Assembly (NCBI RefSeq): GCF_000719955.1
Contig: NZ_JOII01000002.1
Coordinates: 1 to 64,000 of the forward strand
Length of the DNA stretch: 64,000 nucleotides
Direction of reading: 5' to 3'
DNA from: Streptomyces albidoflavus
GTDB lineage: Bacteria > Actinomycetota > Actinomycetes > Streptomycetales > Streptomycetaceae
Shown here piece by piece: positions 10,134 to 20,042 of the stretch (position 1 is the first letter of the stretch; each line of letters begins with the position of its first letter). The notes under the pieces were generated by a model, which made no database searches, was not told the origin of the DNA, and was given only the letters and a program-made list of their open reading frames with translations. Position numbers and translations under genes: made by a program.

Positions 10134-11734
10134 ATGACAGGCTATGACGTCGACGTACTCGTGGCGGGTGCCGGACCGGTCGGGCTGACGGCGGCGGCAC
10201 TGCTGGCGCGGTCGGGCGTGTCGGTGCGCCTGGTGGACGCCGCGGCCGCTCCGGCGACCACCAGCCGTGCGCTCGGTTCCCACGCCCGGAGCCTGGAGAT
10301 CTACGACCAGCTCGGCATTCTCGGCGAGATCGCGCCGCACGGAACACGGATCAACACGTTCGTCATGCACCGGGGCGGCCACCCGAACCGGCTCGATTTC
10401 GACTTCGGCGGGCTGCCGACGCGCTTTCCGTACATGTTCAACGTCGATCAGGTGATCATCGAGCGCGTACTGCGGGGACAGGGCGCGGCGGCCGGGGTCG
10501 CGGTGGAGGGGAACACCGGGCTGGAGTCCTTCCGGCAGGACGCGGACGCCGTCACGGCCGTGCTGCGCGGCCCCGACGGCACCGAGGAGACCGTGCGCGC
10601 ACGGTACTTGTGGGGCTGCGACGGCGGGCACTCGACCGTCCGCAAGACTCTCGGGCTGCCCCTGGCCGGGGAACCGGCCCACACCTGGCTGATCGCCGAC
10701 GCGCTCGTCCACACCGACGTGGACATCGACGGCGTGCACTGGCTGTTCGCGCGGGGCGGCACCCTGATGCTGTTCCCGTCCCGGAGCCGGGCAAGTGGCG
10801 ACTGCTGGACACGACCGGCGAAGGGCAGCCTGACGACCCCGAGCAGATCGCCCGGCAGTTCAGCGCCAAGCTGTCGCGGGCCCTGGGGCGCGACACGGTC
10901 GTCGAAAGGCCCAGCTGGGCGTCGAAGTTCACCATCCAGCAGCGCGCGGTTCCCGCGATGCGCCTCGGGCGGTGCTTCGTCTCGGGGGACGCGGCCCACG
11001 TCCACTCCCCCGCCTCCGGGCAGGGCCTCAACACCGGCATCCAGGACGCGTACAACCTGGCGTGGAAACTGGCCATGGTGGTGCACGGCCACGCCGACGC
11101 CACGCTGCTCGACACCTACGACGCCGAGCGCGTCCCCATCGGCCAGGCCCTGCTCGCCTCCACCGGCGAGGTCATGGACACCATCATGGTCGACAAGGCC
11201 GACGGCACCGGCGGCCCCGCGCACTCTCCCCGTGACTTCCAGCGCCAGCTCATCCGGAACATGTCGGGACTGGCCATCGCCTACCCCGACAGCCCACTGA
11301 CGGTGCCCGGCGGCGGTACGGGCGGGGGCCCGCGTCCCGGCGAGCGCCTCACGCAGATCCGGGCCGCCGACGCCCAGTCACCGGGCTGGACGATCCTGCG
11401 CGAGAAACTCAGGTCTCCTGCCTGGCACCTGCTCGTCTTCGCCGGGAGCGAGGAGCCGGGCGGACAGGATCACCCCGCCGCCGGGGCCGGACCGCTGCCG
11501 GTCTGGGTGGAGATCCTGACGATCAGCCGGCACCGGCACCGGTACGACGGCGGCGATCGCCGCGTGTGGGACCCGGACGGCACGGTCCACGACACCCTGG
11601 CCGCGACGGACGGGGAGTGGCTCCTCGTCCGTCCCGACGGTCATCTCAGCGCCCGGGGCACCGGAGACGCCGGCCTCCGCGCCGCCCTGGACCGGCTGAC
11701 GAGCCTTCACACGGCGGAGCCGGCCCGCGCGTGA
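10134..11734 (+). pseudogene. FAD-dependent aromatic monooxygenase, frameshifted
   Basis: Two overlapping reading frames together encode one approximately 533-residue flavin monooxygenase of the PheA/TfdB polyketide-hydroxylase type. The first frame holds the FAD-binding VAGAGPVGLTAA motif and the CDGGHSTVRK motif. The second holds the GDAAHVHSPASGQGLNTGIQDA motif and the thioredoxin-like C-terminal domain. The frame changes near 10778, where TTCCCGTCCCG should read with one more G to give LFPVPEPGKW. Total length is one base short of a multiple of three. It is either an inactivating one-base deletion or a sequencing error in a G/C run. It is followed by the cyclase gene in an apparent operon. 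Confidence 0.85.
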
Positions 11735-15852: not shown

Positions 15853-16749
15853 TCAGTCCCAGCGCAGCCCGGTGGCCTCGTAGACGACCGTCGAGCTTCG
15901 GGCCAGGCCGCGGCAGGTCAGTTGGCGTGGGGGCGTGCGGTGGGAGCGGACCTCCACGTCGAGGAGGGCCGGGTGCGGGGGATGGCCGGTGAGGTGGACG
16001 TGCCAGTGGTCGTCGAGGCGGGTGGTGGCGGTGACCGTCCAGGCGTGGCGGCCGGCGGGGCCGAAGTGCTGGAGGGCGGCGCCGACCGCCACCTGCTGGG
16101 CGGGGACGAGGTCGGTGTATCCGCGCAGGTGGCCGGCGTGGACGCGGTCGCGCAGGTGTTCCTCGACCGTGGTGACCGCGGTGGCGGCGTCGAGGCCGCC
16201 GTAGTAGACGCCGTCGGGCAGGACGACCACGTTGGCGGCGAAGCGGTCGCCGCCGACGTGGGTCGACTCCCAGACGAGGCCGGGGTGCAGCCGGCTCAGG
16301 GCGCGGGCGGCGGGCCGGCCGCGGACCGCGCAGCAGGTGTCGTGCAGGCCGTGGGCGCAGACGAGGACGACGGGCGGCAGGCCCGGCTCGCCGGGGGCGG
16401 CCAGGGCGGCGACGATCCCGGCCAGTTCCTCGTCGCGGGTCCAGGTCCCCCACTGCTGGTGGTGGGCACCGGAGCCGGCGTACCGCAGGACGGCCCAGCG
16501 GCGCGGGCCGCCGAGCGTGCGGCGGCCGTGGCGGCGGATCAGGAGGATGCGGGCCTTGACCGACTGGGCGGCGGCGAACACCAGGGCCTTGACGCCCGGT
16601 TCGAGGTCGAGGCCGTCGAAGCCGTTGGGGGGCCAGCCGCCCGGGTACTCGATGAGGACCCAGACGAGGCCGAACGGCGCGGTCCCGGCGAGCGGGTCGC
16701 CGCGTCGGCGGGCCGCGTCGGCGCAGAAGAAGCGGGGGAGGTCAGTCAC
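15853..16749 (-). CDS. Sucrase/ferredoxin-like [2Fe-2S] protein
   Basis: A 298-residue protein of the Suc_Fer-like family, a thioredoxin-fold [2Fe-2S] ferredoxin. Diagnostic segments are FFCADAARRRGDPLAGTAP at the start, VCAHGLHDTCCAVRGRPAA in the middle (cluster cysteines) and ESTHVGGDRFAANVVVLPDG. The GTG start at 16747-16749 overlaps the oxygenase stop by eight bases, so it is probably translated together with it. A natural role would be electron supply or a redox partner to the oxygenase in this operon; this is inference. Confidence 0.87.
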   Translation of the reverse strand: MTDLPRFFCADAARRRGDPLAGTAPFGLVWVLIEYPGGWPPNGFDGLDLEPGVKALVFAAAQSVKARILLIRRHGRRTLGGPRRWAVLRYAGSGAHHQQWGTWTRDEELAGIVAALAAPGEPGLPPVVLVCAHGLHDTCCAVRGRPAARALSRLHPGLVWESTHVGGDRFAANVVVLPDGVYYGGLDAATAVTTVEEHLRDRVHAGHLRGYTDLVPAQQVAVGAALQHFGPAGRHAWTVTATTRLDDHWHVHLTGHPPHPALLDVEVRSHRTPPRQLTCRGLARSSTVVYEATGLRWD

Positions 16750-17962
16750 CGTCGGCGGCGCGCTCGTCGTCGGGGACCAGAACGCCCGCCCGCAGCAGCC
16801 GCGCGACGAGGGCGACGCCCAGGTCACCGGCGCGGTGGGGCGCACCGTCGAGCAGGCGGGCCACGGCCGGGAGTTCGGTGTCCGGGAATTCGAGCCAGCC
16901 GGCCCGGGTGGTGAGGCGGTTGCCCTCCAGCCGGGGTGCGAGCGCTCCGCGCAGCCGTACGGGCGTGTCGGGGCCGAGCGTGTCGACGGCCGCGAGCTGG
17001 GCCAGCGGTCCCAGCGGTGCGGGTCGGCCCTGCGCGCGCCGGGCCCGGTGGAAGAGCGGGGCGGGGTCGGCCTGGGCCAGGGCGGCGGTGAGGCTTGCGC
17101 GGACCAGTTCCAGGTCGCCGCCGGGCCCGTCCACGCCGAGCGGGAGCGTGGCGCGCAGCGCGGGGTCCTCGCGCAGGGTGGCCAGCGCGGCCTGGGCGAG
17201 CTGTTCGGCCAGCGTGTACCGGGTCCAGGTGTGGATGCCCAGGGTCAGGTGGACCGAGACGGCGCCCTGCGCCTCGGCGGCGTGCAGCCAGCCGCGCGGG
17301 AGGTACAGGACGTCGCCGGGGGCGAGCACCACGTCGAGGTACGGCTCGCTCGCGGCGGCCTCGGCGACGGCCGGGCGGCGGTCGGTCCAGGGCTGGTCGC
17401 GGAGCGGGTCGGGGTGGACGGGCCGGTGGACGAGCCAGCGCTTGGTGCCCTCGATCTGGAGGACGAAGACGTCGTGGACGTCGTAGTGGTCGTCGAAGCC
17501 GCGGTTCTGCGGCGGGGTGACGTAGGCGTTGGCCTGTACGGGGTGGCCCAGTTCCGTGCCGAGCCCGGCGCAGAACTCCGCGACCGGCTGCCAGGTGCGG
17601 TGCAGCGCCTGCAGGACGAGGGTGGCGCCGTCGGCGAACTCGCGCCACAGGGCCGTGTCGTCGAGCTGGTCGGCGATGGTGGCGCCGACGCCGGCGGGCG
17701 AGGTGTAGGCGGTGTCGGGGAGCGTGGCCCCGTTCCTGGCGACGCGCAGGAAGGGGGTGCGCAGTCCCCGGCGGGCGATCAGTTCGTCGACGGCGGCGGC
17801 GGAGAAGAGGTCGGAGAAGTCACCGGCGCGGCGGTTGAGCAGGGCGGTGCGCGCCCAGAAGTCGCGGGCGAACTCCGCACGGCTCAGCCCCGTCAGACGC
17901 GCTTCGAGGACCCCGGGGCCGGTGGCGCCGGGGTCCTCGTGTGCGGTCCGGAGAGTGGTCAA
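16742..17962 (-). CDS. JmjC/cupin-4 protein hydroxylase
   Basis: A 406-residue Fe(II)/2-oxoglutarate oxygenase of the cupin_4 (ribosomal oxygenase/YcfD-like) family. The iron-binding facial triad is visible as H159-Y-D161 in DDHYDVHDVF and His227 in LPRGWLHAAE. A winged C-terminal region follows. Family members hydroxylate Arg or His side chains of proteins. A TTG codon at 17960-17962 overlaps the stop of the repeat-peptide gene (TTGA), which supports this start; an internal GTG near codon 18 is an alternative. Translation coupling to the repeat peptide suggests that the peptide is its substrate. Confidence 0.87.
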   Translation of the reverse strand: MTTLRTAHEDPGATGPGVLEARLTGLSRAEFARDFWARTALLNRRAGDFSDLFSAAAVDELIARRGLRTPFLRVARNGATLPDTAYTSPAGVGATIADQLDDTALWREFADGATLVLQALHRTWQPVAEFCAGLGTELGHPVQANAYVTPPQNRGFDDHYDVHDVFVLQIEGTKRWLVHRPVHPDPLRDQPWTDRRPAVAEAAASEPYLDVVLAPGDVLYLPRGWLHAAEAQGAVSVHLTLGIHTWTRYTLAEQLAQAALATLREDPALRATLPLGVDGPGGDLELVRASLTAALAQADPAPLFHRARRAQGRPAPLGPLAQLAAVDTLGPDTPVRLRGALAPRLEGNRLTTRAGWLEFPDTELPAVARLLDGAPHRAGDLGVALVARLLRAGVLVPDDERAADGD

Positions 17963-18336
17963 CGGCCCCGGCCGGGCCCATCGGCGCTGCCGTCGGCACC
18001 ACCGTCGTGGACGCCGGGCGTCCCGGCCGCGCCGCCGTCGGCACCACCGTCGTGGACACCGGGCGTGCCCGCCGCGCCGCCGTCCGCGGGTCCTTCCGCG
18101 GCTCCGTCGGCTCCGCCGTCGTGCACGCCGGGCGTACCGGCCGCACCGCCGTCCGCCGGGCCTTCCGCACCGCCGTCGGCACCACCGTCGTGGACACCGG
18201 GGGTACCCGCCGCGCCGCCGTCCGCCGGACCCTCCGCGGCTCCGTCGGCACCACCGTCATGGACACCCGGCGTGCCGGCCGCGCCACCGTCCGCGGGGCC
18301 TTCCTGCTGGTTGGGGTCCTGCTCGGGGTTGCTCAT
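17959..18336 (-). CDS. Tandem-repeat peptide, candidate RiPP substrate
   Basis: A 125-residue acidic, Gly/Ala-rich protein. After MSNPEQDPNQQ come three 23-residue repeats, a 22-residue fourth and a shortened fifth unit. Each contains AAGTPGVHDGGADG, with one His and three to four Asp per unit and no Lys or Cys. There is no signal peptide and no membrane segment. GGGAGGAAAG stands directly before the ATG, a strong ribosome site. The stop overlaps the start of a JmjC-type hydroxylase gene. A leader-like N-terminus followed by identical cores and then an oxygenase fits a multi-core modified peptide. A structural or metal-binding protein is the alternative. Confidence 0.75.
   Translation of the reverse strand: MSNPEQDPNQQEGPADGGAAGTPGVHDGGADGAAEGPADGGAAGTPGVHDGGADGGAEGPADGGAAGTPGVHDGGADGAAEGPADGGAAGTPGVHDGGADGGAAGTPGVHDGGADGSADGPGRGR
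17975..18300 (-). repeat. About 69-bp coding tandem repeat array
   Basis: Four-and-a-half near-identical units of about 69 bases encode the repeats of the 125-residue peptide. Units differ mainly at third codon positions and at one Ala/Gly position, so the protein sequence is conserved more strictly than the DNA. That pattern suggests selection on the peptide rather than recent DNA slippage alone. Confidence 0.85.
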
Positions 18337-18740
18337 CTTTCCTCCCGCGCGTCATAGGGCTGGACGTCCGTGCCGGCGCCCAGGCGTGGAGCAGCGTCAT
18401 CCCCCCGGCACCGCCCGAATCAGCGTACCGCTATGGGAGGAAAGTCACGATTTGGGAGAGAAGGGGGTGCGAGGCGGGAGGCGCGAAGCGTCGGGAGAGG
18501 GGTGCGGGCCTGCCCGGATCACTACATCGGGTGTCCCGATCCATCGATTGCGGCAGCGGTGGGCACGCTTCTACAGTGCACCCTGCAAGTAAGCCTTGCC
18601 TAAGTTGCTCGCTCCGGCTGCGCGCAGCCACTCCACGACGACCGCCCTGTGGCCGGGCGTGGGTGAACCGGCACCTTCGGCCCCAGCACCTCGTGGAGTA
18701 CCGCCATGCCCCCGTCCCGCCCGCGTGAAGGCGGCCGCCC
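18337..18740. other. 404-bp divergent intergenic region
   Basis: This gap lies between the repeat-peptide operon (minus) and the MFS gene (plus). It holds the repeat-peptide ribosome site next to 18337, an iron box at 18587-18606, and a short open frame from 18706 (MPPSRPREGGRP) preceded by GGAG whose stop overlaps the MFS GTG start. I see no other convincing gene. Confidence 0.6.
18587..18606. promoter_or_regulatory. IdeR/DmdR-type iron box
   Basis: AAGTAAGCCTTGCCTAAGTT is an imperfect palindrome that matches the actinobacterial iron-repressor pattern TTAGGTTAGGCTAACCTAA, best seen on the minus strand as ACTTAGGCAAGGCTTACTT. It lies 135 bases before the MFS start, so iron repression of that gene is likely. 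Confidence 0.75.
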
Positions 18741-20042
18741 GTGAAGCCGACGTTCGCGGCCGTCCTGCCCGACCTCTCTCCCTGGCGCTCCTCGCGTGAC
18801 TTCCGGCTGCTGTGGGGGCAGGGCCTCATCACCTTCTTCGGCTCCACCATGGCGCTGGTCGCGCTGCCGCTCCAGATCAAGGAGCTGACCGGGTCGCCGC
18901 TGGCCGTGGGGGCGATGGGCGCGGTCGAGCTGGTCCCGCTGGTCGTCTTCGGGCTGTACGGCGGGGCGCTGGCGGACGCCGTGGACCGGGCGCGGGTCAT
19001 CGTGTCGACCGAGGCGGGGCTCGGGCTGCTGGCGCTGATCCTGCTGGTCAACTCGATGCTGCCGGAGCCGATGCTCTGGCCGCTGTACGTGGTCGCGGCG
19101 GGCGTGGCCGCGCTGGCGGGGCTGCAACGCCCCGCGCTGGACTCCCTGCTGGCCCGGATCGTGCCGCACGAGCAACTGGCCGCGGCGGCCGCCCTCAACG
19201 CGCTGCGCTGGCAGGCCGGGGCCATCGCCGGCCCCGCCGCGGCCGGCCTGGTCGTCGCGTACGCGGGCAACGTCCCCGCGTACGCCACCACGGTGACCTG
19301 CTTCGCCGTGTCGGTGCTGATGTGCCTGCGGCTCTCCCCGGCCCCGCCCTCCGAGAACGCCGCGAAGCCCTCGTTGCGGGGGATCGCGGAAGGGGCGCGC
19401 TACGCCTGGTCGCGGCCGGTGCTGCTGGGGACGTACGCGATCGACCTGGCGGCGATGTTCTTCGCCTTCCCGAACACGATCTTCCCCTTCCTCGCCGACG
19501 AACTGGACGCCGACTGGTCGCTGGGCCTGATGTACGCGGCCGGGTCGGTGGGCTCCCTGTTGGTGAGCCTGACCAGCGGCTGGGCCTCGCGGATGCGGCG
19601 GCACGGGCTGCTGGTCGTCTTCGGCGCCACCGGCTGGGGGCTGGCCATCGCGGCGGCGGGGTGGATGTCGAACGTCTGGCTGGTGCTGGTCTGCCTGGCG
19701 CTGGCCGGGGCGGGCGACATGCTCAGCGGACTGGGCCGCTCCACCATCTGGAACCAGACCATCCCCGACGGACTCCGCGGCCGGCTGGCCGGGATCGAGG
19801 TCCTCTCCTACAGCATCGGCCCGCAGCTCGGCCAGGTGCGGGCGGGCGCGATGGCCGGCTGGACCGGCGCCCGCCCGGCCATCTGGACCGGCGGCCTCGC
19901 CTGCGTCGTCTCGGTGGGCCTGCTGACCGCCGCCCTGCCCAAGCTCGTCACGTACGACGCGCACACCGACGAGGACGCCCGGCGCCGGCGCGAGGCGCAC
20001 ACCCCGAAGGCCGCCGGCGAGGAGGTGCCGGACGCCACCTGA
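18741..20042 (+). CDS. EntS-like MFS exporter, iron-regulated
   Basis: A 433-residue major facilitator protein with about 12 hydrophobic segments, of the EntS/enterobactin-exporter type (RDFRLLWGQGLITFFGSTMA at the start, GLQRPALDSLLARIVP in the middle, GRLAGIEVLSYSIGPQLGQ late). A GTG start follows the short upstream frame in a GTGA overlap. The iron box upstream suggests export of a siderophore during iron starvation. No siderophore synthesis genes are visible in this window, so the substrate must come from elsewhere. Confidence 0.88.
   Translation: MKPTFAAVLPDLSPWRSSRDFRLLWGQGLITFFGSTMALVALPLQIKELTGSPLAVGAMGAVELVPLVVFGLYGGALADAVDRARVIVSTEAGLGLLALILLVNSMLPEPMLWPLYVVAAGVAALAGLQRPALDSLLARIVPHEQLAAAAALNALRWQAGAIAGPAAAGLVVAYAGNVPAYATTVTCFAVSVLMCLRLSPAPPSENAAKPSLRGIAEGARYAWSRPVLLGTYAIDLAAMFFAFPNTIFPFLADELDADWSLGLMYAAGSVGSLLVSLTSGWASRMRRHGLLVVFGATGWGLAIAAAGWMSNVWLVLVCLALAGAGDMLSGLGRSTIWNQTIPDGLRGRLAGIEVLSYSIGPQLGQVRAGAMAGWTGARPAIWTGGLACVVSVGLLTAALPKLVTYDAHTDEDARRRREAHTPKAAGEEVPDAT

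Follow-up and report, generated by a model that had tools for sequence, protein, structure and literature searches.

Results

A repeat peptide, a JmjC oxygenase and a Suc_Fer-like protein are encoded together

The window analysed here is a stretch of 64,000 nucleotides from Streptomyces albidoflavus (NCBI RefSeq assembly GCF_000719955.1, contig NZ_JOII01000002.1, positions 1 to 64,000 of the forward strand), and the system in question is a set of three genes on its minus strand. The first gene (17959..18336) encodes a repeat peptide of 125 aa, homologues of which are found 5' of relatives of the oxygenase described below. The peptide begins with a leader-like N-terminal segment, MSNPEQDPNQQE (18301..18336), followed by a repeat (core) region (17989..18300) in which five AAGTPGVHDGGADG units are set inside EGPADGG... 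blocks. The units start, by their high ends, at 18282, 18213, 18144, 18075 and 18030, and the tandem repeat of the core region has a period of 69. A ribosome-binding site, GGAGGAAAG (18337..18345), stands immediately 5' of the ATG of the peptide gene. The second gene (16742..17962) encodes a 406-aa Fe(II)/2-oxoglutarate oxygenase of the JmjC_2/cupin_4 family (PF08007) and starts with TTG, the sole start codon in its first 40 codons. The third gene (15853..16749) encodes a 298-aa Suc_Fer-like (PF06999) protein, identified by Pfam and alignment as a putative [2Fe-2S] protein with the motifs C131-X8-C140 and H164-X3-D168. The TGA of the peptide gene and the TTG of the oxygenase gene overlap within the string TTGA, and the stop codon of the oxygenase, TGA, is embedded in the beginning of the Suc_Fer gene (GTGACTGA). 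The original prediction, made by a model from the letters of the DNA, had proposed this three-gene set with its five shared units, strong ribosome site and overlapping stops and starts, and each of these was confirmed. The three genes probably constitute a small operon resembling those of ribosomally synthesized and post-translationally modified peptides (RiPPs), in which the repeat peptide would be hydroxylated on Asp by the oxygenase, with the Suc_Fer-like protein as electron source.

The five AAGTPGVHDGGADG units of the window peptide are identical as protein, and the 10 of their 42 DNA columns that differ are all at codon position 3. Pairwise comparison over the ten unit pairs gave 50 synonymous and 0 nonsynonymous differences. 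Because the variation between units is synonymous only, the peptide gene is in all likelihood genuine and subject to purifying selection. No Pfam or NCBIfam family matched any of 11 peptides of this kind (GAD-type, type 1), the window peptide included, and charge complementarity received no support. Near oxygenases, the peptides ranged from 43 to 324 aa in length, with starts chosen by script. A short metagenomic protein, P0007, was observed in which the start of a GAD-type repeat peptide is fused to a PF00708 (acylphosphatase) domain; this fusion is possibly an assembly join.

The oxygenase matched PF08007 with an E value of 1.5e-28. The JmjC_2 match covered residues 141-249 (17216..17542), and in a 32-row alignment H159, D161, K174 and H227 were invariant, which bears out the intact H159-x-D161...H227 triad that had been claimed; the Lys at the K174 position is presumably the 2-oxoglutarate-binding residue. 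By sequence and by fold, the closest solved structures were NO66, MINA53 and YcfD. The protein is predicted to belong, as an intact JmjC_2 enzyme, to the peptidyl hydroxylases, having a ROX-type fold with a winged helix. Its C-terminal domain (residues 310-406; 16742..17035), assigned from a predicted model (predicted local distance difference test score of 81) and fold matches, consists of strands followed by three helices. This domain resembles RiPP recognition elements (RREs) weakly, with low-Z fold matches of the predicted model.

The peptide gene accompanies the oxygenase gene

Genome contigs were scanned for the oxygenase, and the best 80 loci of 127 relatives were taken as a first set. 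The closest named oxygenases were those of S. albidoflavus (93-95 % identical), and public databases name its relatives 'cupin' or, in several entries, 'histidyl-hydroxylase NO66'. In 79 of the 80 loci, a repeat peptide like that of the window was encoded directly 5' of the oxygenase, including two in which the peptide is cut by the contig end (L010, L047) and one in which it is frame-shifted (L067). The sole locus without the peptide (L011) lies on a contig with no more than 89 bases 5' of the oxygenase match. A class sample of 296 genomes of the Actinomycetes contained some relative of the oxygenase in 97 genomes, and in 50 of them (window included) the match had E < 1e-60, which defined the near clade. 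With the window excluded, an Asp-rich peptide was encoded directly upstream of the oxygenase at 47 of 49 near-clade loci: 45 had GAD-type peptides, and two (L160 and L158, the latter labelled 'unk' on the tree yet bearing an Asp-rich open reading frame (ORF), and so counted) had other Asp-rich ORFs. Two class-sample loci, L082 and L083, apparently come from genomes already represented in the first set, by L037 and L059.

At least two DGGAD strings were present in the upstream kilobase of 125 of 130 near loci. As controls, the opposite strand and the downstream stretch gave counts above zero in 0/130 and 1/130 loci. The peptide stop was located no more than 20 bases from the projected oxygenase start in 102 of the 126 near loci where this could be measured. 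At L098 and L102, two loci of one genus inside the GAD-type clade, a non-repetitive acidic ORF ending in GPT[VI]EPGA replaces the repeat peptide, perhaps as a changed substrate.

Many distant oxygenases have other Asp-rich peptides

From the weaker matches in the class sample, 40 further oxygenase places were drawn, and 25 of them had Asp-rich peptides of other types. Type 2 peptides, with cores such as DADGTDGDATDTTDGDAS, were found at eight places, type 3 peptides of ∼35-40 residues with MDPIEVEVEDLAEVTSRDITAGGDSDGTDSSSDFI and variants at 15, and a fourth type ending in DSDGSDG or DPDGSDG at two. The remaining 15 places, where no peptide was recognised, included two where a different kind of small acidic ORF lies upstream (L192, L194), and others with unlikely ORFs. 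The ORF at L194, which is acidic, 35 aa long and ends in ELEALSGGLEVI, is located ∼780 to 672 bases upstream of the oxygenase match and resembles another kind of RiPP leader.

The type 3 peptides, 35-40 aa long and with DSDGTDSSSDFI or a close variant of it at their C-terminal end, form a peptide family that is encoded next to a JmjC_2 oxygenase and comes from a single family of the class (L173, L175-L177, L180, L182-L185, L187, L189, L191, L193, L195, L196 and, at a contig end, L209). By their sequences they look like RiPP precursors with separate leader and core. Three of them gave no match in NCBIfam; the Pfam search covered the GAD-type only.

The association was also examined from the side of the peptide. 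With the window peptide as query, matches were obtained in 29 of the 296 class genomes, and 28 of them adjoin an oxygenase; the apparent orphan in the 29th (G104) was rejected as an artefact, there being no such ORF in that genome. A second GAD-type query matched 22 genomes, all within the 50 near-clade ones. A type 3 query matched 16 genomes, with 15 peptides adjoining an oxygenase; for the 16th (G037), the contig breaks off 15 bases past the peptide match, and an oxygenase match begins 187 bases into another contig. No orphan peptides were found with these three queries over the 296 genomes, in an assessment that set aside extra weak matches on G285:C9 (31-32 % identity). A search of 72,556 plasmid records at E 1e-40 gave no match.

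A maximum-likelihood tree was calculated for 109 oxygenases. The eight peptide labels required seven changes on this tree, which is the minimum, compared with a mean of 41.0 for shuffled labels and none of 200 shuffles as low, the shuffles ignoring relatedness. Types 2 and 3 each fell on one side of a branch, with Shimodaira-Hasegawa-like approximate likelihood ratio test values of 100 and 99. The tree was a quick one with some long branches and was used solely for grouping peptide-bearing clades. The repeat type of the peptide tracks the oxygenase tree.

In a phylum check of 149 genomes, 11 oxygenase places from other classes were found at E < 1e-40. An Asp-rich repeat peptide (for example DADGTDADDAQDADGTDGDAADGTDGDATDGTDGDAGD) was present at 10 of 10 loci with enough upstream sequence, the 11th (L234) being cut 100 bases upstream; as small acidic ORFs were targeted, the acidity of these peptides is partly by construction, which does not apply to their repeats and leader motif. 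The co-occurrence of peptide and oxygenase that had been put forward for testing was observed in the first set, in the class sample and outside the class. An Asp/Gly/Ala-rich repeat peptide is tied genetically to one JmjC_2 oxygenase lineage across the phylum. A precursor-like peptide gene is linked to a candidate modifying enzyme, and the modification itself is predicted.

The leaders of the peptides were compared with patterns drafted after inspection of the sequences. All of the type 2 and out-of-class peptides compared (18 of 18) contained the motif [DE][DESA][DEQ][IM]x[TR], as did 21 of 46 near-clade class-sample peptides; a looser, DDD[IM]xT-like form matched 29 of these 46. The motif was present in 0 of 80 peptides from the window and first set, where 63 of 80 leaders were xQDPx-like.

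Asp is the candidate target residue

In 125 GAD-type peptides, 11 residue types were tested past residue 10: Asp, Gly and Ala were never absent, His was absent in 11 peptides and Pro in three. These peptides contained 373 DGGxD units in which the preceding residue was not Ala; it was His in 288 units, Gln in 41, Gly in 16 and Ser in 14. That D, G, G and D never vary in such units follows from the construction of the pattern and is not evidence. The His that had been called strictly conserved is so within the window peptide but not across its relatives. Twenty of the 125 peptides had no unit His, 17 of them having such units with another residue and three lacking such units.

Asp flanked by small residues is all that types 2 and 3 have in common with type 1. 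For this reason, and as 20 peptides do without the unit His, Asp is preferred over His as the target. FIH is a JmjC hydroxylase that acts on Asp of ankyrin repeats. Both His and Asp had been proposed as targets; the sequences speak against His as a general target and favour Asp, which we consider the probable main site of hydroxylation. The beta carbon would most likely be the position hydroxylated.

The Suc_Fer-like partner and the neighbourhood

The Suc_Fer-like protein matched PF06999 with an E value of 1.1e-14 and 55.3 bits, against a cut-off of 34.9. A Suc_Fer gene was detected on the same strand in 118 of the 130 near loci, in 116 of them no more than 350 bases from where the oxygenase match ends. 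Among the loci without it, one (L081) lies on a contig that ends inside the oxygenase, and 11 had no detectable downstream match. Suc_Fer was further found in eight of eight type 2 loci, in 10 out-of-class loci within the fetched stretch and in none of 15 type 3 loci. The Suc_Fer gene is dispensable to the gene set, and of the three-gene set originally described the peptide and oxygenase pair stands, with Suc_Fer as a frequent rather than a constant member. In the 118 relatives (window counted), C9, C131, C139, C140, C279 and H164 were invariant, and D168 was present in 117. A search of the PDB with the sequence of the Suc_Fer protein gave no match at E 0.1. At residue 162 the window protein has Ser, while 111 of the 118 have Cys. 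Three of the 11 loci without a downstream match (L091-L093, one family) instead share a conserved ORF of ∼60 aa, located 110-200 bases past the oxygenase, whose sequence includes LICDLTD and SRDILExEGRPExAWW.

The flanks were surveyed up to 3 kb at 80 loci for ORFs of at least 110 aa. None of these ORFs recurred across distant genera, and no conserved transporter or protease was seen among them. Flanking genes were common among close relatives, in Arthrobacter/Paenarthrobacter and among Streptomyces themselves; one group of three loci comprised flank ORFs of Flexivirga and Streptomyces.

An IdeR/DmdR-like box was located in the window at 18585-18603; agreeing with the consensus at 13 of 19 positions, it was the best match among 121 upstream regions. 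Regulation by an iron box was rejected as a feature of the system, as the mean best match was 9.93 both in the loci and in 605 block-shuffled controls. Behind this box lies a divergent major facilitator superfamily gene (18741-20042), whose best NCBIfam match, below cut-off, was the enterobactin exporter EntS. It may possibly encode an iron-regulated siderophore exporter and was not counted in the operon, because no neighbouring ORF recurs across distant genera. Elsewhere in the window, a gene resembling FAD-dependent hydroxylases, assigned by eye only, is split over two overlapping frames (10134-11300 and 10610-11734); the split reflects a frameshift in the gene or else an error in the sequence.

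Discussion

In the mechanism that we propose, the N-terminal segment of the peptide would dock on the RRE-like winged-helix domain of the oxygenase. With Fe(II), 2-oxoglutarate and O2, the enzyme would then hydroxylate the Asp residues that stand between small residues in the repeats (HDGGADGG here, DGTDGDATD in relatives), proceeding serially along the array. Where present, the Suc_Fer-like protein would give electrons, most likely keeping or restoring the ferrous iron of the oxygenase. This modification would yield a disordered and polyanionic peptide, rich in hydroxyaspartate and fit for metal-ion binding, a role that we propose tentatively. The product may act inside the cell, because no dedicated protease or exporter was seen conserved nearby.

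That the peptide is the substrate of the oxygenase we consider highly probable. The original prediction had named oxygenase operons lacking a repeat peptide as evidence to the contrary, and some exist: the two of 49 near-clade loci, both from one genus, and the 15 of 40 distant places where no peptide was recognised count in part against the proposed relationship. The alternatives have to be judged alongside it. Spurious frames are common where high GC content and repeats coincide, and the ORF could be dismissed as low-complexity noise of a high-GC genome; the purely synonymous variation, the nearly empty control strand and downstream stretch, and the recurrence of the peptide across the phylum contradict this, and we regard it as refuted. 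It is also very unlikely that the ORF merely serves as a leader whose translation controls the oxygenase through translational coupling, the enzyme being an ordinary ribosomal-protein hydroxylase. The stop-start overlap in the window and the short distance between peptide stop and oxygenase start in most near loci would suit such a leader, but tight spacing is expected in any operon, and a gap of at least ∼100 bases separates the type 3 peptides from the oxygenase match. Moreover, the amino-acid sequence is conserved beyond what mere translation would demand, the repeat types track the oxygenase tree, and the peptides, by their script-chosen starts, exceed the usual length of a leader.

The peptide could instead be a partner, an acidic and disordered iron- or calcium-binding chaperone or scaffold, while the oxygenase acts on another protein. 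Its Asp-rich, low-complexity sequence, the Suc_Fer protein with its hint of iron or redox handling, and the lack of a conserved protease or exporter in the surveyed flanks are in keeping with this; tandem amplification, third-position-only variation and a repeat type that follows the tree fit a substrate at least equally well, and the peptide is encoded upstream in the manner of RiPP precursors, so that we find a partner role improbable. Finally, the oxygenase might hydroxylate the His of each unit to 3-hydroxyhistidine, as NO66 and MINA53 do on ribosomal proteins. Its closest solved relatives are histidine hydroxylases, and His occupies most of the unit positions, including all five in the window peptide. 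We nevertheless judge this unlikely, as the unit His is missing from peptides such as those of Arthrobacter crusticola (L033), Flexivirga (L067, L069) and Brachybacterium epidermidis (L072), and no repeated His occurs in the type 2 and type 3 peptides that accompany related oxygenases. His may be hydroxylated besides Asp in this lineage.

To our knowledge, few bacterial members of this oxygenase group have a known substrate, and here the gene order supplies a substrate candidate for whole oxygenase families at once. The natural variants (His-free, GAD-only, TDGD and SDGTD types) discriminate between the possible target residues. If Asp is hydroxylated, three genes would suffice as a simple route to polymers rich in hydroxyaspartate, and Suc_Fer proteins would have a new role. 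It is conceivable, and on balance somewhat short of probable, that the loci represent a previously unrecognised, phylum-wide class of poly(beta-hydroxyaspartate) repeat peptides, made by a single RRE-bearing JmjC enzyme with an Asp-ligated, non-Rieske [2Fe-2S] protein, and serving as intracellular metal-binding polymers and not as secreted antibiotics.

Comparison with known systems

The peptide modification system seems undescribed. In line with the original statement that no RiPP class with this set was known, no system that unites an Asp-rich repeat peptide with a single JmjC enzyme and Suc_Fer was found in the open-access literature, subscription papers and supplements lying largely outside that search, and the strings HDGGADG, GGADGGA and DGGADGG were absent from the open-access papers searched. 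What is already known is that JmjC enzymes act on RiPP precursors and that beta-hydroxyaspartate arises in RiPPs through other enzymes.

BipG and PbsQ of biphenomycin biosynthesis are JmjC/cupin-like hydroxylases acting on a RiPP precursor (PMC12707348, PMC12257519). Ornithine is hydroxylated there after the action of other enzymes, whereas in the window operon the peptide is repetitive and the oxygenase is the sole modifying enzyme recognised. Of the biphenomycin-type multinuclear non-heme iron-dependent oxidative enzyme (MNIO), cobalamin-dependent radical S-adenosylmethionine enzyme and arginase, none was detected by Pfam among six window proteins, nor as a recurrent neighbour across distant genera. 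Asp beta-hydroxylation in ribosomal peptides is described for PesHI and SmaO (PMC13060819, PMC13097080); PesHI is an MNIO and not a JmjC enzyme, the available description of SmaO names no JmjC protein, and long Asp repeats are described for neither in those portions. An update of RRE-Finder reports PF08007 proteins with RRE-like folds, with bacterial homologues in 'RiPP-like genomic contexts' (PMC12710340). These proteins share the JmjC_2 domain and the RRE-like domain with the window oxygenase, and the accessible text gives no peptide, repeat or Suc_Fer partner for them.

The Suc_Fer-like protein resembles Aim32 and Apd1 in belonging to PF06999 and in its CX8C spacing with a following His. 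The motif given for Aim32 is CX8CXnHX3H (PMC8482512), whereas HX3D is found here, with Asp at the last ligand position in 117 of 118 relatives.

The closest likeness of the oxygenase is to NO66, MINA53 and YcfD, with which it shares the domain order, the facial triad, the position of the 2-oxoglutarate-binding Lys and the C-terminal winged helix. Those enzymes have ribosomal proteins as substrates, whereas the system in the window has a dedicated peptide gene directly upstream of the oxygenase, in types that follow the oxygenase tree.

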